A stretch of 44,482 nt of DNA from a virus (IMGVR_UViG_3300031963_000287:1-44482); one strand, 5' to 3'. Shown: positions 75 through 44,482, numbered from the stretch's first letter. The notes: a model not told the origin generated them from the sequence alone. Translations and numbers: made by a program.

Positions 75-695
75 ATGAACCAATCTATTTTAAATAAATC
101 AAGAAATGATAAATTCGCACTTTTGTTTGGATTACCTGTTGGTATAAAACAAAAGATTGATCCTGTTTTAATGAGTGATTTTAATGATAATAAAGTGGAA
201 TTAAGTATATTCGGTTTATCTGTTCCTGATGTAATAATTCCACCAATTTCACTAGGGTTTAGTGGTCAAACATATAAAACTAGTTCATTTTCAAGACCAG
301 ATTATAGTCCATTGGAAGTAAAATTTTTTATAGATAATGGATATCACAATTATTATATATTGTGGTCATGGTTAAATCAATTTAATGATTCAAAATACTC
401 AGTAAGCGACATTGTTACAACACAAGAAATTCCACATATTGGTGAATCCGATATGAAAAATATGTTCTCAGATTATGTAACTAATTTAAATTTAATTATA
501 ATGGACGAATATAATAATAAATTAATGAATATATCTTATGAAGATGCGTTTATAACAAATTTAGGAGGAATAAGCTATTCACATCAAGATGGAGCAGAGA
601 TAATTGGGTCTGTTTCCTTTGCTTATAACCAACTTCATATTGAAATGGTTCATAATGTAAATGATTGTAAGGTAGATTGTCATGACAAAATATGA
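75..695 (+). CDS. gp19-fold tail tube or baseplate-tube junction protein
   Basis: 206 residues. The N-terminal part (about 14-70) alternates a short strand, a GLPVGI turn, a strand reading VELSIFGLSVPDVIIPP and the SGQTYK turn. This is followed by SFSRPDYSPLEVKFFID and YILWSWLNQFND, the arrangement of the T4 gp19/gp48/gp54 tube-fold proteins (binding interface, beta-sandwich, then an aromatic-rich helix). The C-terminal strand (residues 180-192, SVSFAYNQLHIEM) resembles the closing strand of that fold. Because it sits next to hub genes rather than next to a sheath gene, a tube-initiator or junction role (gp54/gp48-like) is as likely as the main tube. The last 14 bases overlap the next gene. 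The fold assignment comes from pattern similarity, not an alignment. Confidence 0.55.
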   Translation: MNQSILNKSRNDKFALLFGLPVGIKQKIDPVLMSDFNDNKVELSIFGLSVPDVIIPPISLGFSGQTYKTSSFSRPDYSPLEVKFFIDNGYHNYYILWSWLNQFNDSKYSVSDIVTTQEIPHIGESDMKNMFSDYVTNLNLIIMDEYNNKLMNISYEDAFITNLGGISYSHQDGAEIIGSVSFAYNQLHIEMVHNVNDCKVDCHDKI

Positions 696-2271
696 TAAAA
701 TTAATGGTGAATTGGTTACTTTAAGAAATCAATTATACCAAATAAGAATAACAATGTATAATAACATGGATAAACCTGTTTTTATACCATATAAAGTTGT
801 AATGGGGTTAGTTATAGAAGAAACTATGATTAATTGGTGGACTAAAGGATGGATTATTCTTCAAAATGATTTTGAGGTTTTGGAGAAAGGAGCTAATCTT
901 GATCTGTTTTCGGATCAAGAAAAAAATTCTTCTAAATCACAAAGTTATATTTATAAATTTAGACATGATGGTAGAAATAAAATAAACATAAGAATATCAA
1001 CGATATCTGATGGTATTAATGATGAAAAACTTTGGACGATGGATTATGATTTTGTTGTTTATGATGTAGAAGACATGGAATCAATAAATTCCATTAAAAA
1101 ATCAAAGAAATTTTATTTTATTGATGAAAGATATCAAATTTTTTCTGAAAGAAATATTCCGTGGTCAACATCTACTCATGGGGATGCTGCGAAGTCTGGG
1201 AGTCCTGTTTGGTCTTTACCCGATAGTCAAAGGAAAATGAATCCATGTGATGCAATAAAATCAATAATAAATACAGCGTCTTGCAACACTTTCACAAATT
1301 CCATAAATGAAGGTGAAATAAAGGTAGGTTATGATTATGAATTTGGATCTATAGATAAACCGGACATTCCTTTAAACAGTATAAACAATGATTTGTGGAA
1401 TAAAGGAAATTCTTCTCCTGATTATAATGTTTTTTATACTTCTCCATCCAATTCAACAGTAATAGATGATCTAGATTTTATGCTAAATCATGCTGTTGGT
1501 GACAAAAAAGATCCTATTTTTTTAAAATTCGGTAGATATGATAAAAACTGGGAATTATTATCATTAAAAGATTACTTTAAACAAGCTAAACAATTAGAAC
1601 AATTGCTTTTAAATGATGGTGTTGCTCCTACATCAACTGCATATGTTGGTAGAGCACCGATACAAAAAGATGATAAAAAAATAATAAATTTTACCTCTCC
1701 TAGAGCCTCATTAATAAATAACTATAAATTTTCTCAAATGGCCCCAGTTGATGATTTTAGATTCACAAACAGACCAATACATATGTTTGATTTTTCTACA
1801 GGAACATATAATATTCATGCTAAAGATAATAAATTAGAAAGTTTTTATGAAAATCTTAAAGAAATATGCTCCTCTGGTGAACTTTATTCATTCTCCTCTA
1901 CTGGCGGAAAAGCTCAAGTTTGGATGAATATAAATAAAACCAAAAGAGAAGGAATTTCTGTAGAAAATACACTATTAACACAGGGTTCACCTTTGTTAAA
2001 TTCTGTCAGAATGACAAAAGACATGTTGTTCTTAAATCAAAGTTTATATTTTCAAAATGAAGGATTAACATTAAGAACTCCTGGTAACTTTATATTTGTG
2101 GATAAATTAGATGCAAGTGATAAAAATTTATTTAATGATAAATTTTTAGGACAATGGTTTATAACAAAGGTAATACATTATTTTGACCAGAATATGTATG
2201 TTACTGATGTTTATTCAAATAAATTTGATGGAATTCAACCACATTGGGATGTTTTAGATAAAAAGTATTAA
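682..2271 (+). CDS. Probable baseplate hub protein (gp27-like)
   Basis: 529 residues, starting inside the end of the preceding gene. The N-terminus (residues 10-60) is strand-rich with IRITMYNN and VMGLVIEETMINWWTKGWIIL, typical of hub domains that pack on tail-tube proteins. The C-terminus (about 490-525) reads GQWFITKVIHYF then MYVTDVYSNKFDG, a pattern common at the end of gp27-like tail hub proteins. It lies two genes upstream of the gp5-like spike, the partner that gp27 binds in T4, which supports the call. No catalytic motif is seen. It could instead be another baseplate-wedge component; the assignment rests on context plus short similarity. Confidence 0.5.
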   Translation: MTKYDKINGELVTLRNQLYQIRITMYNNMDKPVFIPYKVVMGLVIEETMINWWTKGWIILQNDFEVLEKGANLDLFSDQEKNSSKSQSYIYKFRHDGRNKINIRISTISDGINDEKLWTMDYDFVVYDVEDMESINSIKKSKKFYFIDERYQIFSERNIPWSTSTHGDAAKSGSPVWSLPDSQRKMNPCDAIKSIINTASCNTFTNSINEGEIKVGYDYEFGSIDKPDIPLNSINNDLWNKGNSSPDYNVFYTSPSNSTVIDDLDFMLNHAVGDKKDPIFLKFGRYDKNWELLSLKDYFKQAKQLEQLLLNDGVAPTSTAYVGRAPIQKDDKKIINFTSPRASLINNYKFSQMAPVDDFRFTNRPIHMFDFSTGTYNIHAKDNKLESFYENLKEICSSGELYSFSSTGGKAQVWMNINKTKREGISVENTLLTQGSPLLNSVRMTKDMLFLNQSLYFQNEGLTLRTPGNFIFVDKLDASDKNLFNDKFLGQWFITKVIHYFDQNMYVTDVYSNKFDGIQPHWDVLDKKY

Positions 2272-4342: not shown

Positions 4343-7300
4343 ATGAGTTATGTAAAAGATCCAATTTATGGAAATCATCTAGGAATTGTCGTAAACGATG
4401 CAAGTTTTGATCCTGAACAAAGAGGAAGAGTTCAGGTATGGATTCCTTATTTATCAAATACATTACATTCTGGTTGGAATGATAAACTTGAAGACAAAAC
4501 ATTTAAACATGTACATGAATCTGGTGCTTTAACTCCTGAATTAGTAGAAGAATTAAAAAATGTTTTGCCTTGGGCAGAATGTGCTGGACCAATTATGGGT
4601 GGCGGAACATCTGCAACATATAATCCATCAACGGGGATAACAGATACAAATCCTCATAGGACTTTTGCAGGAAGAACCCAAGATTATGGTGATACATTAT
4701 TAATACCAACCGATCCTGGTGATGAATTTGATATTAATAGAAATTTAAATCCAGAATTTGCTAATAGATTAAATGGTTTTTATTCTGATTTAAAAAAAGC
4801 TGGTTATAATGTTACTATAACATCTGGTACAAGGGCAGACGCTGGTGACAAAACAGGATCTGCACATTATAGTGGAATAGCAGCTGATTTAAAAATTACA
4901 GGAAATGGTGCTTATGGAGAAGTTAATATTACTACAATGAATCCAGGTAAGGATAAAGTAGAAAATAAAGACACACAAGCATTTAGAGACTTAGCAGAGA
5001 GTCATGGATTATGGCAACCTATGCATCCAGATACAGGAGAAGTAGAAAGCATAAGTGAAAAATGGCACTTTGAACCTGTTGAAACTCGCGGAGGAAATAG
5101 AGGATATAATAAATTTGCTAATTTAGAATTAAAAAAAGGATTATCACCAAATGAAGTTACACAAACAGCAGTTGATGCAGCAGAAGTTGCTGGAGCAACA
5201 GTAAATACAGCAAAAAACCCAAAATCATCTGATTTTGAACCTACTGACATAAGCACATCTTCATATACACCAATAAAACAAATACAACCAAAATTAACCG
5301 CATATAGTCCTAAATTTGGCGGAGATTCTATGGAGGGAGGGTATGAGAGTGCAAAAAAAGGACCAGACGGAAAAAATCAAGTTAGAACATTACAAGATTT
5401 TTATGATGGAAGTTCAAAATACATTACATTAGCTGCGGATGATAATATTTCAGGAAAAACATATATAATACCAGAAATAACATGGAAAAATAAAAACGGA
5501 GAAACTATAGTTTCAAAAAACGTTCCTGCTGCTGTTCATGATAGAGGTGGTGCTTTTGTGGGGAAAGGAGAATCAAGATTCGATATCCCGTTTGATAGAG
5601 ATGTAAATGATGGAGGATCATCTCAGCCATATTCTCAAAAAAATTTAGTTTTAAATGAAGTTGATAAAAATACTTTTGAAAAAACATCAGGTCAATCTTA
5701 TATTTCAAATGATCCAAATTCTCCGATGGTGAATCCTATACCAAATTTTAATTCATCAGTAATTCCTGCTGGTGTTGCTGGAGCGCAACCATCTGGATTT
5801 ATTTCTACACCAAAAATAGGTGCAAAGGTTTTTGTTTTCTTTTTGGCTGGTGATATTCAAAAACCAATTTATTTTGCTGGTTTGTTGGAGAAGGAATCAT
5901 ATCAAAAAGCTCAATCTGTATCTAGTCCAGAAGTTCAAGTAACAGGTAAAGAAATACATAGAACAAATGAGGTACACGGCCCTGTTAATACAACAAACAT
6001 GTTTGGAAACATTAACGGAGTTCCTGTGGAGGAACAAATGGCTGCATTTAGTAAACAAGGATCATTGTATCAGGTAGGAGCCATTGTTCACGAAATAGCT
6101 GCTGCGGGTAAATCATCTACCTGTTACGGAGATAGTCATAGCCAATCTCTTGGTCATGAAATTAGAAACGTAAAAATGGATTACAAATTATCATCGGAAG
6201 ATCTTAATTTTAGTGCTGGACTAAATGGGACAGAAAAAGAAATAAATGAAAAAATAAAAGCTCAAGAAGATATTCATAAAATTTCAAAAGAAATTCAAGA
6301 AGAAAAAATAAAAGATATTGAAGCTAATGCAAAAAACGGAGAAAAGGTTCCATGTCCTTTGTGTTCTACTTCACACGCTGTTGATAGAGCAAGTGCATTT
6401 GCTAAAAAAGTTATTACTTTTTTAAGTAGAATATTAAAAATTCCTTATTTTTCTTATGTAGTTGATGTTGTAAATTTTATAACAAATGTTTTGGTTGTTC
6501 CTTTTTGTTCAATCGTGCCTGGTAGTGCATTAGGCAAATGTGGAAACGAAGAATGTGAAAATGGTATGATTCCTTCTCCACAAAAACCAATAGAAGATGC
6601 AAATAAAAAGGCAGCAGAAAAATTAGTTTCAAAACAAAAAGAAATAGGTGAATTAGAAAAAAAACTAGGAAGTGGTGGATGTTATTCTGTTACAGCATTA
6701 AAAGATGTTGTTATTTCTGCTGGTGGACCAATGAATGATGCGAAATGCTTTGCAAAAACAACAAATATTTCAGAACCAATTGGTGGACAGACAAAGGGAG
6801 AAGACGGAAAAGGAAGTACACAGACAATAAGAGCAAGATCTGCAAAGGACTTAAAAACTGTTCCATATATACCTCCCGTAGAATATCCTGGTGGTAATAT
6901 ACTTCTTAAAGGTGGTAATTCTGTAAAAATAATTGCTGGAGCACCTGGTATAGAATTGGATACTATAGGAAAAATTTCATTAAATTGTGGTTCCATAGAA
7001 ATATTATCATCTGATGGTCAGTTATTATTAGGATCTAAAAATCACACAACATTAAGTGGTAAGGTTGTTACAATATCGGCAAATGATAAAACAAAATCTG
7101 GTGGTGTTAATATAAATTCTCCTCATATGATATGTAAAGGATTTACTGCAACAGGTGATGTTGGTATAAAAGGAGGAGCTAGGATTGATGGTGAGTTATC
7201 AATTCCCTATTTAAATACAGTTTCTCAAAGGATGCAGTGTGATGATGGTATGTCACCTGATCAACGTATTCCTTTCGCTAATTGGGCAATTGGTTCTTGT

Positions 7301-7879
7301 CAATCAAATGATACTGCAAATTCAACTAGACTTGTATTAACACACTATCTTATGCCTGGTGCTCTTTTATTGCTTTCTAATATTATAAAATATGTAATGG
7401 AATTATATAATACAATTCTTACAAATACAATTATTGAACCAAGTATTACAGGAATTTATTATGGGTTTTGTCTTAATTCAGCTGGACCAGGTACATCGTG
7501 GGGATATGTTCAAAATTTCCATCACAATCATACGGAAGATCCTAAACCGCATCACCATGACTATATTATGCCCAAAGGAACCTATTATGATGATATTGCT
7601 GGTGTTAATGACTCCGCGGTTGAACCCAATGAGGTTCCTACAAGGGCAAGAAAACATGGATTAGGACCAGAAGGTGGACCAAAATCATTAGCTGGTTGCG
7701 GTGGTTTTGGTGGTTGGGGAGGTTCTTCTGGTGGAAGAAAAGCAAAATTAAATTCTTTTGGTTTGGATAATGAGTTAGATAACTTTTATGGTAATGTTAT
7801 AAATAAAAACAACACCAAAATAACATACAACAAAGACGGATCTGTTAATATAAAATTAAACGAAAATCCTTGTGATTAA
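4343..7879 (+). CDS. gp5: gp5-like baseplate spike with inserted M15 peptidase and 3D/double-psi barrel domains
   Basis: 1178 residues. The OB-fold begins at residues 7-40 (YGNHLGIVVNDASFDPEQRG, VQVWIPYL) and resumes at about 486-514 (PKIGAKVFVFFLAGD, PIYFAGL). Between them lie two domains. An M15/VanY-like peptidase (about 125-255) shows the zinc motifs SAHYSGIAADL near 175 and WHFE near 240. A 3D-type double-psi beta-barrel (about 314-430) starts KLTAYSP and carries VHDRGGAFVGKG...FDIPF near 398, as in lytic transglycosylase-like domains. Residues 625-680 contain a coiled coil and CPLC, followed by a hydrophobic segment. About 850-955 are short repeated strands (GGNILLKGGNSVKIIAG), the gp5 beta-prism needle. 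The C-terminus has a His-rich loop (HHNHTEDPKPHHH) and a Gly-rich stretch. Its likely role is to puncture the envelope and cut peptidoglycan at injection. T4 gp5 instead carries one lysozyme domain. Confidence 0.85.
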   Translation: MSYVKDPIYGNHLGIVVNDASFDPEQRGRVQVWIPYLSNTLHSGWNDKLEDKTFKHVHESGALTPELVEELKNVLPWAECAGPIMGGGTSATYNPSTGITDTNPHRTFAGRTQDYGDTLLIPTDPGDEFDINRNLNPEFANRLNGFYSDLKKAGYNVTITSGTRADAGDKTGSAHYSGIAADLKITGNGAYGEVNITTMNPGKDKVENKDTQAFRDLAESHGLWQPMHPDTGEVESISEKWHFEPVETRGGNRGYNKFANLELKKGLSPNEVTQTAVDAAEVAGATVNTAKNPKSSDFEPTDISTSSYTPIKQIQPKLTAYSPKFGGDSMEGGYESAKKGPDGKNQVRTLQDFYDGSSKYITLAADDNISGKTYIIPEITWKNKNGETIVSKNVPAAVHDRGGAFVGKGESRFDIPFDRDVNDGGSSQPYSQKNLVLNEVDKNTFEKTSGQSYISNDPNSPMVNPIPNFNSSVIPAGVAGAQPSGFISTPKIGAKVFVFFLAGDIQKPIYFAGLLEKESYQKAQSVSSPEVQVTGKEIHRTNEVHGPVNTTNMFGNINGVPVEEQMAAFSKQGSLYQVGAIVHEIAAAGKSSTCYGDSHSQSLGHEIRNVKMDYKLSSEDLNFSAGLNGTEKEINEKIKAQEDIHKISKEIQEEKIKDIEANAKNGEKVPCPLCSTSHAVDRASAFAKKVITFLSRILKIPYFSYVVDVVNFITNVLVVPFCSIVPGSALGKCGNEECENGMIPSPQKPIEDANKKAAEKLVSKQKEIGELEKKLGSGGCYSVTALKDVVISAGGPMNDAKCFAKTTNISEPIGGQTKGEDGKGSTQTIRARSAKDLKTVPYIPPVEYPGGNILLKGGNSVKIIAGAPGIELDTIGKISLNCGSIEILSSDGQLLLGSKNHTTLSGKVVTISANDKTKSGGVNINSPHMICKGFTATGDVGIKGGARIDGELSIPYLNTVSQRMQCDDGMSPDQRIPFANWAIGSCQSNDTANSTRLVLTHYLMPGALLLLSNIIKYVMELYNTILTNTIIEPSITGIYYGFCLNSAGPGTSWGYVQNFHHNHTEDPKPHHHDYIMPKGTYYDDIAGVNDSAVEPNEVPTRARKHGLGPEGGPKSLAGCGGFGGWGGSSGGRKAKLNSFGLDNELDNFYGNVINKNNTKITYNKDGSVNIKLNENPCD

Positions 7880-38523: not shown

Positions 38524-41500
38524 TTATTTAATTTTATTTTCTAATTTTTCAAGTCTTTCTGATAATTCTTTTACTGCATTTATTAGAGGAAGAATAAATG
38601 GCTCTAAGCTAATACCCTGCAAACCGCTACTTTCTTTAGACCATCCAGAAAAATAATCAGCACCTTCTTCATCCATTGCTTTTTTCACATTCTGTGCAAT
38701 TAAACCTAAAACTAGAGACGTTGAATCTTTCTCATTTTCTTCTCTGTAATGAGGATTTGATTTGTCAAGCTTGTTATTTTCTATCCAGTTGTATGTTACA
38801 GGATTTATTTTTTTAATAAAATTCAAACCTAAATTGTTTTCATTTATATTTTTCTTTAAACTTATGTCTGAAACTCTTGTCCATGAGGCAGATCCAGCTG
38901 TGCCTGTTATAGTTGCGTGTATGTATGTTGTTCCTGCACCTATTGTAACAGTATTGTCACCTACACCAGCAAGAGTATTACCTATAACAATTTGATTTGT
39001 TCCAGTTGCCACACTTGGTCTAGAATAATACCCAATCATTATGTTGTTTGTACCTGATGTTAATGAGGCTCCACCAGAACCAGTTAATCTTCCTGCACTT
39101 GAACCTATACCTATATTATTAGCACCAGTGCATTCATAAAGAGCATTAACACCTACTGCAACACAATTAGAGCTTGATAACATATTATATAAAGATTGGG
39201 TTCCTATGGCTGTATTGTTACTTCCTGTTGTATTAGTATATAAAGATTTTGAACCAACAGCCGTATGGTTATCACCAGTATCATTATAAGTTCCACTATC
39301 TAAACCTATAAAAGTTAAATTTGTTGCTGATCCACTATTTCCTGAACTAGACCCAGCTCCATATCCAATACCAATATTACCATTATCTCTATTTCTAAAA
39401 AGAGCATAAGTTCCAATAGAAACACTATTTGAAACATTGTTATTACCCTGTGTGGCACCACCAATACAAACATTGTTACTACCAGTTGTTATACCTCCCC
39501 CAGAAGCTGTACCAATTAGAACATTTTCACCTCCAAGAGTTAAACTAGGAGCAGCCAAAGCACCAATACATATGTTATAAATTCCTGTGGTAAGAATGTT
39601 CGCAGCATTATGTCCAAAAATACAATTTCCGCTACCACTAGTTAATTCTCTAGCAGCAAAATATCCAAAAACAGAATTTGCGCCACCATTAGTCAACTTC
39701 TCTAAAGATGAGCTACCAACTGCTGTATTTTCAGATGCACCAGCACCTACTCCTAAACCCATTGAGCTATAACCAATAGCTGTATTATTAGAACCAGCAG
39801 TAATTTTTTGAAATGAATTACATCCTACCGCAGTGTTATTGTTAGAAATTTCATCGTTTAACGAGTCTATCGAATTAGAACCAACAGCTGTATTATAATT
39901 TGCTTTATTATTTCTTAATGCGTCAGAACCAATAGCAGTGTTTTGTTCTCCTACTAAATTTTCATATAAACTTGCATAACCTAATGAAGTATTATATTGA
40001 CCCGTAGGAGATTTCTGTTGCGAAGCATATCCAACAGCTGAATTAAAACGCCCAATTGTTACTGATGATAAAGCATATACACCTAAAGAAGTATTATAAG
40101 AACCAAAACTTGATGATGTTCCATTAGTAAATTGTCCACCATTTCCTATGTAAATATTTCTTCCTCCACTACCTGCACCATAGTTAGTTGCTATTAGCCA
40201 TTCTTGACCACTGGAATTTACATAAAAATCTTTAAGCCTAGAAGTGCCTTCAACTTTAAATACTTCGGTAGAAGTACTTGTTGTGTTTACCAGTAATTTG
40301 GGTGTATATGTCCATACATTAGAAACCCTCAATCTTTCCGCACCAGCAATTGATGTTGAAACTTGATTTGTTGCAAAGTAAAACCCAGTATTTGTGCTTC
40401 CTGTAAAGTTTATCGAAGGGGTAGCAAGAGCACCGTTTGGGAATGTAGTATTTCCGCTAAATGTTTTAACACCAGCAATAGTTTGATTACCAGCATTCAT
40501 TACAAAATCTGCATTCGCACCAGCATCAGGAATTGTGTATGTTCTTGCTGTATTGGTTGTGTATGTTAATGTGGCTTTATTTGTTTGAGTACCAAATTCA
40601 ATTGTACCAGCACCAATAATATTTCCACTTATATTTGCACTTCCATTAAAATTTTGTCCCCAAATTGTTCTTGTAGTCTGAAGAGTTGTTGCAGTTGAAG
40701 AATTTCCAGAAGCACTAATAGGCCATGTTCCTGTTGCATTTGTACCATCTGTAAATGCTATATCTTTATATGTAGAAAATGCACTATTTGAACCATAAGG
40801 AGCTTGCCACAATCTCATTCCTATGGTTGTTTTATTGAATGATAACATGTTATCATTTCCACCAGCAGAAGTTGCAAATGTTCTAAATGCAATATAATCA
40901 GCCCAAACACCAGTATTATTATTATTCCAAGAACCAAATCCTACTGTGGCATATCCTGCTCTAAATGCAGAAGGAGCAGCAGTTCTATTGTCTATTGATT
41001 TAATTGCTGAGATGCTTATATTTGATGTTCCATCAAAAGGAAGGTCATTTATTGTTCTTGCTGTTTGTAATTTTGTTGCAGTTGCAGAATTTCCTGTAAT
41101 TGAACCAGCTATATCAGAACTAAATGTTTTTGTACCAGCAATAGTTTGATTACCAGCATTCATTACAAAATCTGCATTCGCACCAGCATCAGGAATTGTG
41201 TATGTTCTTGCTGTATTGGTTGTGTATGTTAATGTGGCTTTATTAGTCTGAGTACCAAATTTAATATTTCCAAGAACAGTTAATTTTTCGTCTGGTGTAA
41301 TAATCCCAATACCAACATTACCAATACCATTAGTACTACTAGAAGTTCTGGTTAAAGTTAATAATGCATTTCCGGTTCCAGCAGTGTCTTGTGGTCCTAT
41401 TTGTAAAGGATTTCCGATTGTTGGTGTAGTAGAAGTACTTAGCCACATCCCCCATCTGTTGTTATTAGAAACATCACTTCTTAAAAGATATTGAGGAAAA

Positions 41501-44482
41501 GAACTATTGGTAACAAATATAGCATTAGAGTTTGAAAAAATATTTCCATCTACTGTAAAATTATCATTTGTTCTTAGATTATTTGCTCCATCTCTATAAA
41601 GATTAACATCTCCTCCAAGAACAATAGCATCTCCAGAAGAAGTAGCATTAGGAAAGTTTACTGGACCTCCATTAAATGTTAATGTGTCAAGAGCATCTGA
41701 ACCTAAAACAACATCACCATTAACTGTTAAATTTCCAGTAGCAGAAACATTACCACTAACAGTTAGTTTTTCATTTGGAATAGTTGTATTAATACCAACA
41801 TTTCCAGATGTTACTATAGCTACTGCGGTAATATTAGCTACTCCCTTATCTCTAAAAAATCTTAATTGTCTTTGATTATTGTCTATTTCCCATGCACCTA
41901 CTCCGGTAGCGTCCATTATAGTTAATTGTCCCCCTTCATTTGTTCCCCCTTGAGGACCAGCATGAAATACACCTGATGAACAACTAATATCACCAACTAC
42001 AGTTAATCTTGCATTTGGAGTAGATGTATTAATACCAACATTAGTTCCATTATCAAATATCTGAGAATTTGTAATAGTATCAGCATCTGTCCATTTAGAA
42101 ATAAAATTACCAGTTCCTCCACTTCCATCAACTAAAGAAGAACCCCAAACTCTTGAGTTAATTGTTCTTTGTTGTAATGTATTTGAACTATGAATTACAA
42201 CTGTATCTGTTGTTCCATCGGATAATGTAGTCGGAACAGTTACATTGCCGACAACAAATGTATCATCGGTTTTTAGTGTATTAGTAGAAGAACGATATAA
42301 ATTAGTATCTGTTCCAAATAAAATACCATTAGAATTTGTTGTTCCACCAGTAACTTTTATTGTATCCTTTGCACTAATACTACCAGAAACAGTTAATGTT
42401 TCATTTGGTGTGGTTGTTAGTATACCAGTTCTATTGTTTGTAGAATCTACATATAAGGTATTACTGTCAACATTAAGATTTCCTGTAACAGAAATAGTTG
42501 ATCCATTATCACTTATATTAGAATTTCCGATAGTATTTGGTCCTGTTGTTTTTAATATAGTGTTTGTAGTTCCAGAACCACTTAAAAACGTTGCAGCAGT
42601 ATCCCAAACTCTTGAATTGATTGTTCTTTGTTGTAATGTATTTGAACTATGAGTTACAATTGTATCTGTTGTTCCTGTTACTAAAGAAGTCGGAACAGTT
42701 ACATTGCCGACAACAAATGTATCATCGGTTTTTAGTGTATTAGTAGAAGAACGATATAAATTAGTATCTGTTCCTATTAATAATGTATTATCAACTTTTA
42801 AATCTCCTGTAGCGGAAACATTACCAGATACAGTAAGTGCTTGGCTTGGTCCATAAGAACTTGTATTTATAGATACACCTGTATTATTTACATACAATCT
42901 AGGTTGCCCGAAGTAATTGAATCTTGCAGTATCCAATGTACCTACAAGTGGAGTTCTGTTTTGATCCACCGTCAATGATACTATATCATAGAGATAATTA
43001 TTAAGATTAAAAGCAGAGACGTTTCCTGTTGTTGTGTTTACATTTGTAATAGATCCACCAGCACTAATATTTCCAGATATAGTCAGGTTTCCTTGTGCTC
43101 TTATTTCTGGGAGATAAACAATATTATTTCTATCAACAACTATATTGTCTCTACCTAAAATAACTACATTTGAAAAATTTCCGGTATTATTTCCACTACC
43201 ACCTACTACAATAGATTTATTTTGTACTAAATTGTTATTTCCACCAATAACAACAGAATTACTTCCAACTTTATTATTATTACCTCCAATTATAAAAGAA
43301 TTGTCTCCTTTATTAGAACCATTCGGAATATTAGCAGCAGCATTATTTTGTCCACCCAAAAATACAGAATTTGATGAATTGAAATTATTATTTAATCCAC
43401 CAATTGATTGAGAGTTTTGACCAATTATTTGTGTATTAATGGAACCTATTGCAACTGCGCTTAATAATGCGGTATTCCCCTTTCCTCCTATAACAGAACT
43501 TTCTGAATAAGCTTTACTTGCACTTGAAGAAACAACAAATGAAAAATCATTAACTATATTTGATGTTCCACCTAAAACAACAGAATTCCCGGTTACACTG
43601 CTGTTATTTGTATTAAATGCCAAACTATTTGTTAATATTGTATTGTTTAAACCATTTAACAAAACAGATCTATTGTTTAATACGTTATTATTTCCTAAAA
43701 TACCAATAGAACTTAATTGTGCATTTGTATTAATATTATTTATTAATATTGAATTGGTTGATACACCAGAATTAAGTGTGTTTATTGCAAGAGAACCTGT
43801 TCTTAAATTTGAATCTGAGGAATTTATTGCAACAGAATTTGATGAAATTAAGTTATTAAAACCATCAATATTTAAAGAATTATCATAAACTTTATTATTA
43901 TCATAACCAATGTTTATTGATGAATTTGTTACAAAATTAGAACTTCCTTGAATAGAAATGCTTTTGTTATCAACAAAATTATTACTTCCGTTAAATTGCA
44001 CAGAATTTGATGAAATTGTGCTATAAGAAGAGTTAAATACAGATGAATTTTTATTTGATATTATATTATTTGATAATACTGAAAATACGTTATCTGACAA
44101 ATCACTATTATTAGTTTGTATTGCAGTTGAATTATTTTTTAGTTTATTATTATTACCAAAAAACACTAGAGATGAACTAATTTCAGAATTTGTTGTATTA
44201 AATGTTAATGAACTTAATGATTTAGTATTATTACTATTATAATCAAAAGAAGAACTTAATGAAGAATTTTTTGAATTTATACCAAAAGAACTTAATGATA
44301 AAACAGAATTAGTGGAATAAAGTCCTACTGACTTATCTCTTAAATTAGAAGATACTGTATTAAATGAGGTAGAATTGTTTAATGTATTCTGAGTTCCACC
44401 GATTGCTAAAGAACTTAATAATAAAACAGAATTAGTGGAATAAAGTCCTACTGATTTATCTGTTAAGTTAGAAGATACTGTA
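38524..44482 (-). CDS. Giant tail fibre/adhesin with YadA-head-like repeats and S74 chaperone (5' end outside window)
   Basis: At least 1986 residues; the frame is open to the window edge, and the GTG at 44166 is internal. From the N-terminal side, 44166-43100 encodes about 14-residue repeats of the form NSVAINxxNNxxxx, as in YadA/Hia trimeric adhesin heads. 43000-40160 holds repeated modules GINTSxPNxxLTVSGNVSATG with beta-sandwich or shaft-type strands. 40160-38950 holds about 17-residue repeats NTAIGxxALxxNxxG. The last 130 residues (38524-38880) are an S74 endosialidase-type intramolecular chaperone: SDISLKKNI gives Ser and Lys five apart, followed by NPVTYNW and VLGLIAQNV. In this family cleavage occurs just before the Ser, releasing the chaperone after trimerisation. 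It should be the host-binding fibre. Confidence 0.88.
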   Translation of the reverse strand, partial: TVSSNLTDKSVGLYSTNSVLLLSSLAIGGTQNTLNNSTSFNTVSSNLRDKSVGLYSTNSVLSLSSFGINSKNSSLSSSFDYNSNNTKSLSSLTFNTTNSEISSSLVFFGNNNKLKNNSTAIQTNNSDLSDNVFSVLSNNIISNKNSSVFNSSYSTISSNSVQFNGSNNFVDNKSISIQGSSNFVTNSSINIGYDNNKVYDNSLNIDGFNNLISSNSVAINSSDSNLRTGSLAINTLNSGVSTNSILINNINTNAQLSSIGILGNNNVLNNRSVLLNGLNNTILTNSLAFNTNNSSVTGNSVVLGGTSNIVNDFSFVVSSSASKAYSESSVIGGKGNTALLSAVAIGSINTQIIGQNSQSIGGLNNNFNSSNSVFLGGQNNAAANIPNGSNKGDNSFIIGGNNNKVGSNSVVIGGNNNLVQNKSIVVGGSGNNTGNFSNVVILGRDNIVVDRNNIVYLPEIRAQGNLTISGNISAGGSITNVNTTTGNVSAFNLNNYLYDIVSLTVDQNRTPLVGTLDTARFNYFGQPRLYVNNTGVSINTSSYGPSQALTVSGNVSATGDLKVDNTLLIGTDTNLYRSSTNTLKTDDTFVVGNVTVPTSLVTGTTDTIVTHSSNTLQQRTINSRVWDTAATFLSGSGTTNTILKTTGPNTIGNSNISDNGSTISVTGNLNVDSNTLYVDSTNNRTGILTTTPNETLTVSGSISAKDTIKVTGGTTNSNGILFGTDTNLYRSSTNTLKTDDTFVVGNVTVPTTLSDGTTDTVVIHSSNTLQQRTINSRVWGSSLVDGSGGTGNFISKWTDADTITNSQIFDNGTNVGINTSTPNARLTVVGDISCSSGVFHAGPQGGTNEGGQLTIMDATGVGAWEIDNNQRQLRFFRDKGVANITAVAIVTSGNVGINTTIPNEKLTVSGNVSATGNLTVNGDVVLGSDALDTLTFNGGPVNFPNATSSGDAIVLGGDVNLYRDGANNLRTNDNFTVDGNIFSNSNAIFVTNSSFPQYLLRSDVSNNNRWGMWLSTSTTPTIGNPLQIGPQDTAGTGNALLTLTRTSSSTNGIGNVGIGIITPDEKLTVLGNIKFGTQTNKATLTYTTNTARTYTIPDAGANADFVMNAGNQTIAGTKTFSSDIAGSITGNSATATKLQTARTINDLPFDGTSNISISAIKSIDNRTAAPSAFRAGYATVGFGSWNNNNTGVWADYIAFRTFATSAGGNDNMLSFNKTTIGMRLWQAPYGSNSAFSTYKDIAFTDGTNATGTWPISASGNSSTATTLQTTRTIWGQNFNGSANISGNIIGAGTIEFGTQTNKATLTYTTNTARTYTIPDAGANADFVMNAGNQTIAGVKTFSGNTTFPNGALATPSINFTGSTNTGFYFATNQVSTSIAGAERLRVSNVWTYTPKLLVNTTSTSTEVFKVEGTSRLKDFYVNSSGQEWLIATNYGAGSGGRNIYIGNGGQFTNGTSSSFGSYNTSLGVYALSSVTIGRFNSAVGYASQQKSPTGQYNTSLGYASLYENLVGEQNTAIGSDALRNNKANYNTAVGSNSIDSLNDEISNNNTAVGCNSFQKITAGSNNTAIGYSSMGLGVGAGASENTAVGSSSLEKLTNGGANSVFGYFAARELTSGSGNCIFGHNAANILTTGIYNICIGALAAPSLTLGGENVLIGTASGGGITTGSNNVCIGGATQGNNNVSNSVSIGTYALFRNRDNGNIGIGYGAGSSSGNSGSATNLTFIGLDSGTYNDTGDNHTAVGSKSLYTNTTGSNNTAIGTQSLYNMLSSSNCVAVGVNALYECTGANNIGIGSSAGRLTGSGGASLTSGTNNIMIGYYSRPSVATGTNQIVIGNTLAGVGDNTVTIGAGTTYIHATITGTAGSASWTRVSDISLKKNINENNLGLNFIKKINPVTYNWIENNKLDKSNPHYREENEKDSTSLVLGLIAQNVKKAMDEEGADYFSGWSKESSGLQGISLEPFILPLINAVKELSERLEKLENKIK
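40459..40598 (-). repeat. Direct repeat copy 1 in fibre gene
   Basis: About 140 bases nearly identical to 41122-41260 (offset 663), differing at a few positions near each edge. Encodes NADFVMNAGNQTIAG and flanking residues. Marks an in-frame duplication of a fibre module. Confidence 0.8.
41122..41260 (-). repeat. Direct repeat copy 2 in fibre gene
   Basis: Second copy of the module at 40459-40598, in the same frame and strand. Together with the repeats at 42143 and 42603 this shows that the fibre shaft grew by unequal in-frame duplication. Confidence 0.8.
42143..42315 (-). repeat. Direct repeat copy 1 (172 bases) in fibre gene
   Basis: Matches 42603-42774 over about 172 bases with about a dozen differences (offset 460). 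Encodes GTDTNLYRSSTNTLKTDD and the following VVGNVTVP segment. Confidence 0.8.
42603..42774 (-). repeat. Direct repeat copy 2 (172 bases) in fibre gene
   Basis: Second copy of the 42143-42315 module. The two copies differ mainly in the middle (SDGTTDTVV against VTGTTDTIV). Confidence 0.8.
44288..44482 (-). repeat. Tandem direct repeat near the 5' side of the fibre gene
   Basis: The 72 bases at 44288-44359 recur at 44411-44482 with about four changes (period 123 bases, 41 codons). Both encode KDKSVGLYSTNSVL-like residues (RDKSVGLYSTNSVLSLSS and TDKSVGLYSTNSVLLLSS). The second copy ends exactly at the window edge, so more copies may follow. Confidence 0.8.

Follow-up and report, generated by a model that had tools for sequence, protein, structure and literature searches.

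The window analysed here, a linear IMG/VR record of 44,482 bases (IMGVR_UViG_3300031963_000287:1-44482), encodes a family B DNA polymerase, RecA/UvsX-type and SMC/Rad50-type proteins and helicases. Judged by these replication genes, of which the DNA polymerase shares about 30% identity with its T4-like cyanophage counterparts, the window is a T4-like phage distant from cultured members. Its GC content of 28.5% and the presence of a Shine-Dalgarno-like motif at 3 of 36 genes are compatible with a Bacteroidota-type host, without proving it. A very large tail fibre ORF of at least 1880 residues, open at its end and carrying a Peptidase_S74 chaperone domain, occupies positions 38524-44481. The gene studied here, 4343..7879, encodes a gp5/VgrG-like spike of 1178 residues, as indicated by the ORF call, an OB-domain profile and full-length relatives, and its limits coincide exactly with those given in an earlier note on this DNA. 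It closes a series of genes in conserved order, namely tail tube (phrog_45, E 2.4e-12), probable baseplate hub, a protein of 104 residues, one of about 570 residues, and the spike; in the related locus L002, a terminase-type gene lies upstream of this series. The probable hub gene (682..2271) was placed by position, without a profile match, and its own profile had no match in the PDB. The 104-residue protein (2283-2597), located within this baseplate cluster, is rich in cysteines, matches DUF6171 (E 2e-6) and phrog_13558 (E 9e-18), and is kept in L002. All features of the spike described below, like the hub gene, lie on the plus strand.

Neither the whole spike nor its single domains had a significant match in a PDB sequence search, and four spike queries retrieved no spike relative among cultured phages; a further query, L020, had matches due solely to its lysozyme-containing part. 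The distal portion of the protein ends in a conserved needle/tip region (6890..7876), which sister groups encode as part of a distinct gene. It is preceded by a four-cysteine motif, C671-x2-C674 and C733-x4-C738 (6353..6556), which is likely a metal site, as the four cysteines are invariant across nine spikes and the second pair occurs in all 69 ORFs with a CPxC-type motif. The earlier note had recognized the first pair (CPLC) correctly and had read the second as CxxxC, which is in fact CX4C; the hydrophobic stretch that it mentioned, about 55 residues long, sits between the two pairs. Both pairs are found again in other spikes, whether or not these have inserts.

The N-terminal region contains an OB domain in two halves. 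The C-terminal half (5774..5890, residues 478-516, including PSGFISTPKIGAKVFVFFLAGDIQKPIYF) matches Pfam Phage_base_V (PF04717) at residues 478-514 over profile positions 39-74 of 75 (E 3.1e-6), with a score of 27.9 bits that passes the curated cut-off of 23.8. The N-terminal half (4364..4600, approximately residues 8-86, ending in LPWAECAGPIMG) is kept in spikes with and without inserts. In relatives L018, L013, L024, L014, L016, L032, L051 and L020, Phage_base_V matches as two separate stretches, for example profile positions 1-32 at about residues 12-43 in L018 and 35-74 at about residues 500-566 in L024, which indicates that the OB domain is split. Given these two stretches and the closely similar N-terminal half in the window, both barrel halves of a gp5/VgrG-type OB domain are present, and a profile built on relatives with no insert had VgrG1 as its best PDB match (E 0.019). 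In the window, the domain is interrupted between LPWAECAGP (residue 83) and PSGF...GAKVFVFF (residues 483-500), and the insert proper spans approximately residues 109-455. Because the profile is split in relatives and sister-group spikes have just 50-90 residues between the OB halves, these 350-odd residues can be regarded as a loop insert, which, with strands numbered from Pfam and VgrG alignments, would occupy the loop between OB strands 3 and 4. It had been proposed that the OB fold is open from about residue 40 to 486. The interruption is real and the fold does not close ahead of the inserts, but a start at residue 40 is too early, because residues 40-75, also present in insert-free spikes, belong to a conserved core whose intact portion extends to about residue 83-108; close relatives that are wholly different downstream share 93-100% identity over residues 1-108. 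An AlphaFold model of residues 1-545 (17 alignment rows) was too poor for use (pLDDT 44.5), and Foldseek found nothing under E 0.1 with it.

The insert comprises two domains, hereafter referred to as the cassettes at positions A and B. The cassette at position A (4667..5128, approximately residues 109-262) is predicted to be an M15-type zinc peptidase, on the basis of matches to M15_4 and to the endolysin family PHROG 894 (E 0.005), of M15 residues and of a relative in L013. The M15_4 match occurs at a single place, 4844-5011 (E 1.1e-3 for the record), and its score of 15.3 bits is under the Pfam cut-off of 25, for which reason we call the domain M15-like. The zinc site is nonetheless complete: HxxGxAxD (4865..4888, within SAHYSGIAAD at residues 173-182) provides H175 and D182 as predicted zinc ligands, and ExxH (5057..5068, E239-K-W-H242) provides a predicted catalytic base, E239, and a further ligand, H242. 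The zinc peptidase read earlier from SAHYSGIAAD and WHFE is thus borne out at the residue level, with a profile score below threshold. Besides identical copies, the sole relative found for this domain is that of L013 (6472-7002; 49% identity), which has QNGAIAVD in place of HYSGIAAD, lacks the first zinc histidine and keeps ExxH; this copy may be inactive or rearranged.

The cassette at position B (5279..5707, approximately residues 313-455) shares motifs with 3D/MltA-type double-psi barrel domains and is a predicted lytic transglycosylase. Two 3D signatures occur in the correct order within residues 313-455: TAY..GG (LTAYSPKFGG, residues 318-327), common to the window and to L103, a Pfam 3D protein (E 5e-12), and HDRGGA..G..D (VHDRGGAFVGKGESRFD, residues 398-414), common to the window and to L100, L101 and L103, all three of which were retrieved by that very motif. 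The structural study of YuiC names T91, D129, D151 and the catalytic D162 (PMC4499186), and the corresponding 3D/MltA/Sps residue set is complete in the window: T319 (5297-5299) is the equivalent of T91, D366/D367 (5438-5443) of D129, and D400 and D414 (5540..5584) of D151 and D162, that is, of MltA D297 and catalytic D308. The cassette therefore resembles Bacillus subtilis YuiC (Sps) and Escherichia coli MltA in its threonine and three aspartates but, unlike them, escapes detection by the Pfam 3D profile. Its double-psi barrel fold is a prediction, and we designate the domain 3D-like, by its motifs and residues, rather than filing it as a family member. Its best Pfam match was kiwellin, a double-psi barrel (E 0.19, not significant), and DPBB_1, searched by record, had no match in the spikes. 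AlphaFold applied to position B alone (4 alignment rows) gave a pLDDT of 35, too poor for use. A scan of genomes for relatives of this cassette gave 131 motif matches, none of which was confirmed, and a second, over-strict pattern found nothing. The double-psi barrel proposed in the earlier note accordingly retains both motifs, the threonine and the three aspartates, while lacking a Pfam match and a confident model; the equivalent of the catalytic acid on which that reading depended is present in the sequence as D414. Patterns for the M15 and 3D motifs were run over the 743 ORFs of the fetched loci and over 20,000 shuffles. Apart from the window protein and its identical copies, no ORF contained both; one other contained the M15 pattern alone, and none of the shuffles matched either.

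Comparison with close relatives indicates that both cassettes are replaced at fixed borders. In these relatives, the OB flanks and the needle are approximately 85-100% identical, whereas positions A and B hold different, often unrelated enzymes. The contrast is already visible in nucleotides: between the window and L002, identity is 80-96% to about nucleotide 300 of the gene, about 45% at 360-840, 78% at 840-900, about 42% at 900-1380 and 81-96% thereafter. The central peak corresponds to the linker between the cassettes (5153..5257, residues 271-305, EVTQTAVDAAEVAGATVN...), which is kept in protein and DNA and shows 78% nucleotide identity to its counterparts in both L002 and L006, flanked on either side by a stretch of about 45%. 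L002 and L006 have OB halves that are 100 and 98% identical and are 91% identical over the rest, with unrelated domains at A (z 1) and 54% identity at B. Relatives that share one position differ at the other: L002 and L018 have related A (73%) and unrelated B, as do the window and L013 (A, 49%), and the reverse is true of L013 and L024 (B, 81%) and of L014 and L018 (B, 54%), whose A cassettes are unrelated. As judged from these alignments, the two positions change independently and each has its own history. Homologous exchange through the conserved linker is a plausible route. In every shared cassette dN/dS is below 1 (0.16-0.83), with clear constraint on A of L002/L018 (0.26) and B of L013/L024 (0.24) and weak constraint in some other pairs (0.54-0.83).

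We identified three M15 types and CHAP-like or M23-like domains at position A, and GH24 lysozyme, two 3D types or SLT-like domains at position B. The lysozymes are the most readily recognized: GH24 is found at B of L002 (E 3e-9), L003 (E 2e-10) and L006 (E 8e-15), where Pfam Phage_lysozyme passes its cut-off of 22.3 with 37.6-55.8 bits, and as the single insert of L020 (E 1e-13, 52.1 bits). Profile support is moderate or weak for M23 in L089, CHAP in L060, NlpC/P60 in L091, a Hedgehog/M15-type zinc domain in L006 and Sps/3D in L013. Other assignments were made by motifs and invariant residues only: M15-II (L002, L003, L018, L032, L036, L051 and L064), CHAP-like (L024, L014, L035 and L041), SLT-like (L014, L018, L091 and L096), 3D type 2 (L024, L016, L032 and L093), M23-like (L016), and lysozyme-like or barrel domains elsewhere. 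The invariant catalytic residues are H, D and HxD in M15, E in SLT-like, C and H in CHAP and two aspartates in 3D cassettes. The 3D type 2 domain of L013 matches SpsC, of the YuiC group, with an E-value of 9.9e-4, far below the equivalog cut-off, and the best PDB match of the type 2 profile (B of L013, L024, L016 and L032, insert of L093) was YuiC (E 0.096). This profile gave no significant match when compared with the window copy on its own; when known 3D-type proteins were included alongside the window copy, the match was significant, but this comparison is partly circular.

Most cassettes, including both of those in the window, score below Pfam cut-offs. When Pfam 3D, M15_3, CHAP, SLT, M23, Hydrolase_2 and DPBB_1 were searched by record, the only match within spikes was M23 in L089 (4.7e-4), with nothing for CHAP, SLT or DPBB; an SLT match in the L014 record lies outside the spike. 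Profiles of the M15-II, SLT-like and CHAP-like classes found nothing significant in the PDB. In L042 (5992-7095), the OB insert matches Tlde1, an L,D-transpeptidase-type T6SS effector domain, with an E-value of 2e-4, under the Pfam cut-off.

More distant spikes also contain wall-enzyme-like domains in the same OB loop. In a tree of the OB core only, insert-bearing spikes fall into two separate supported groups of 25 and 6 rows, with at least three changes, and because these groups are separate, the loop appears to have gained or lost inserts repeatedly. Outside the clade of the window, the needle mostly has a gene of its own, apart from that of the OB-enzyme part. In L041 (5986-8437) and L042 (5992-8348), two tandem OB-fold genes with differing enzyme-like inserts are followed by a separate needle gene, an arrangement that suggests a heteromeric spike; in L041, one of the two reads as CHAP-like and the other as lysozyme-like.

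These data can be interpreted in several ways. All the sequences are metagenomic, and the differences between relatives might in principle be assembly or binning chimeras. The chance of this is negligible and we rejected it, since two contigs from other samples, L004 and L005, carry an identical copy of the window spike, many independent contigs show the same borders, and a given cassette can be met in more than one background, with a normal degree of divergence. Alternatively, the inserts might be adhesion modules that bind the wall without degrading it. The evolved Dit of lactococcal skunaviruses has the same layout, with an insert in a conserved tail core (PMC10688798), and the L013 M15 copy has lost a zinc ligand; the insert families are, however, enzyme families with invariant catalytic residues, which makes this explanation very improbable. 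A narrower version concerns position B of the window alone, which may be a merely structural or wall-binding double-psi barrel, so that only the M15 domain, or neither, cuts. Double-psi barrels are able to bind without cutting, and neither profiles nor the model inform on this copy, but T319, D366/D367, D400 and D414 agree with the threonine and three aspartates of YuiC and MltA (PMC4499186), and in relatives this position is occupied by a true lysozyme. We consider a non-catalytic position B unlikely.

The pairing of activities deserves separate consideration. Of the 16 distinct two-cassette spikes, 15 read as one peptide or amide cutter plus one glycan cutter, a count behind which about half of the cassette classes are motif readings by eye; for this reason a one-of-each rule is a hypothesis. 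The pairing could instead be an accident of a small cassette pool rather than a functional rule: besides the classification by motif, the cassette order is reversed in L091 and L096, the fit of L038 is not clear and several spikes have one cassette. Against this stand the 15 spikes themselves and the tandem OB genes of L041, likewise one of each type, and we find an accidental pairing doubtful, though it deserves to be taken seriously. The inserts of L038 (5971-7875), the sole two-cassette spike without a clear fit, resemble an SGNH-type hydrolase and an unclassified domain. As to the window itself, a peptide-cutting and a glycan-cutting activity had been inferred earlier to reside on one device. 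This gains support from the close relatives, in which GH24 (E 1e-9 to 1e-14) replaces the 3D-like domain and position A is occupied by peptidase or amidase types, but its glycan-cutting half depends in the window on a 3D assignment made by motifs and residues.

We regard it as quite probable that the gene encodes a T4-like spike with a two-position enzyme socket in its OB loop, whose cassettes are exchanged one by one. The product would be the central spike of a contractile-tailed phage, in which the OB domain joins the needle to the hub and the loop between the third and fourth OB strands accommodates a peptide-cutting wall enzyme at A, here of the M15 type, and a glycan-cutting one at B, here of the 3D/MltA type. 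By analogy with T4 (PMC3004832), tail contraction would drive the spike, presumably a trimer, through the outer membrane, carrying the enzyme copies across the envelope, and the two enzymes would cut stem peptides and glycan strands and so open the wall for passage of the tail tube. The OB shell and needle would be strongly constrained, with cassettes swapped singly; recombination within the conserved linker and flanks is the probable route, and exchange would probably follow differences in host peptidoglycan. That the loop serves generally as an exchange socket across a large group of uncultured T4-like phages, with non-homologous enzymes swapped independently at the two fixed positions while the division of labour is kept, seems to us rather likely, with less assurance.

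Like the spike described here, T4 gp5 unites an OB domain, a wall enzyme and a needle in one protein. As had been stated, its lysozyme is single and placed after the OB domain, not within it (PMC3004832), whereas the window has two enzymes inside the OB loop, neither of them a GH24 lysozyme, so that the T4 order OB, GH24 lysozyme, beta-helix is not encountered. In T4, the needle is separable by cleavage into gp5* and gp5C; in the sister groups here, it is a separate gene. Dual activity as such is not new, because the hub gp15 of the Anabaena myophage A-1(L), a phage of a Gram-negative-type host, is described as having lysozyme, endoglucanase and peptidase domains, the latter two shown to be active, and thus already places peptidase and glycan-cutting domains on one puncturing apparatus (PMC10966104). 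In the parts of that report drawn on here, the enzyme domains are on the hub protein, the spike OB is ordinary and no swapping is reported. In a review from 2017, the list of two-domain virion lysins has just five entries, every one from a Gram-positive host (PMC5380687): gp61 of phiMR11, HydH5, gp49 and gp44 of phi11, and CwlP. Each of these virion proteins likewise couples two lytic domains of different kinds, but no nesting in an OB fold is described for them. The evolved Dit proteins also have foreign domains within a conserved tail core whose ends align with the plain form; their inserts, however, bind carbohydrate and serve adsorption, in a siphophage tail and not in a spike (PMC10688798). 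Wall enzymes nested or exchanged in a spike OB loop were not reported in the literature and cultured phage records searched, a search that left subscription journals mostly outside. The combination of OB-loop nesting and independent swapping appears new, without its priority being proven.

The usual picture is that of a rigid spike core with at most one lysozyme. Here, a load-bearing OB domain accommodates insertions 200-500 residues long, and enzymes are swapped at fixed borders between near-identical phages, which raises the question of whether the entry enzyme of a virion must match the peptidoglycan chemistry of its host, and so shapes which hosts can be entered. The OB loop also offers a natural reservoir of wall-degrading domains that are small, divergent and mostly missed by current profiles. 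If the exchange socket is real, it would amount to a modular means of adjusting virions to the peptidoglycan of their hosts.
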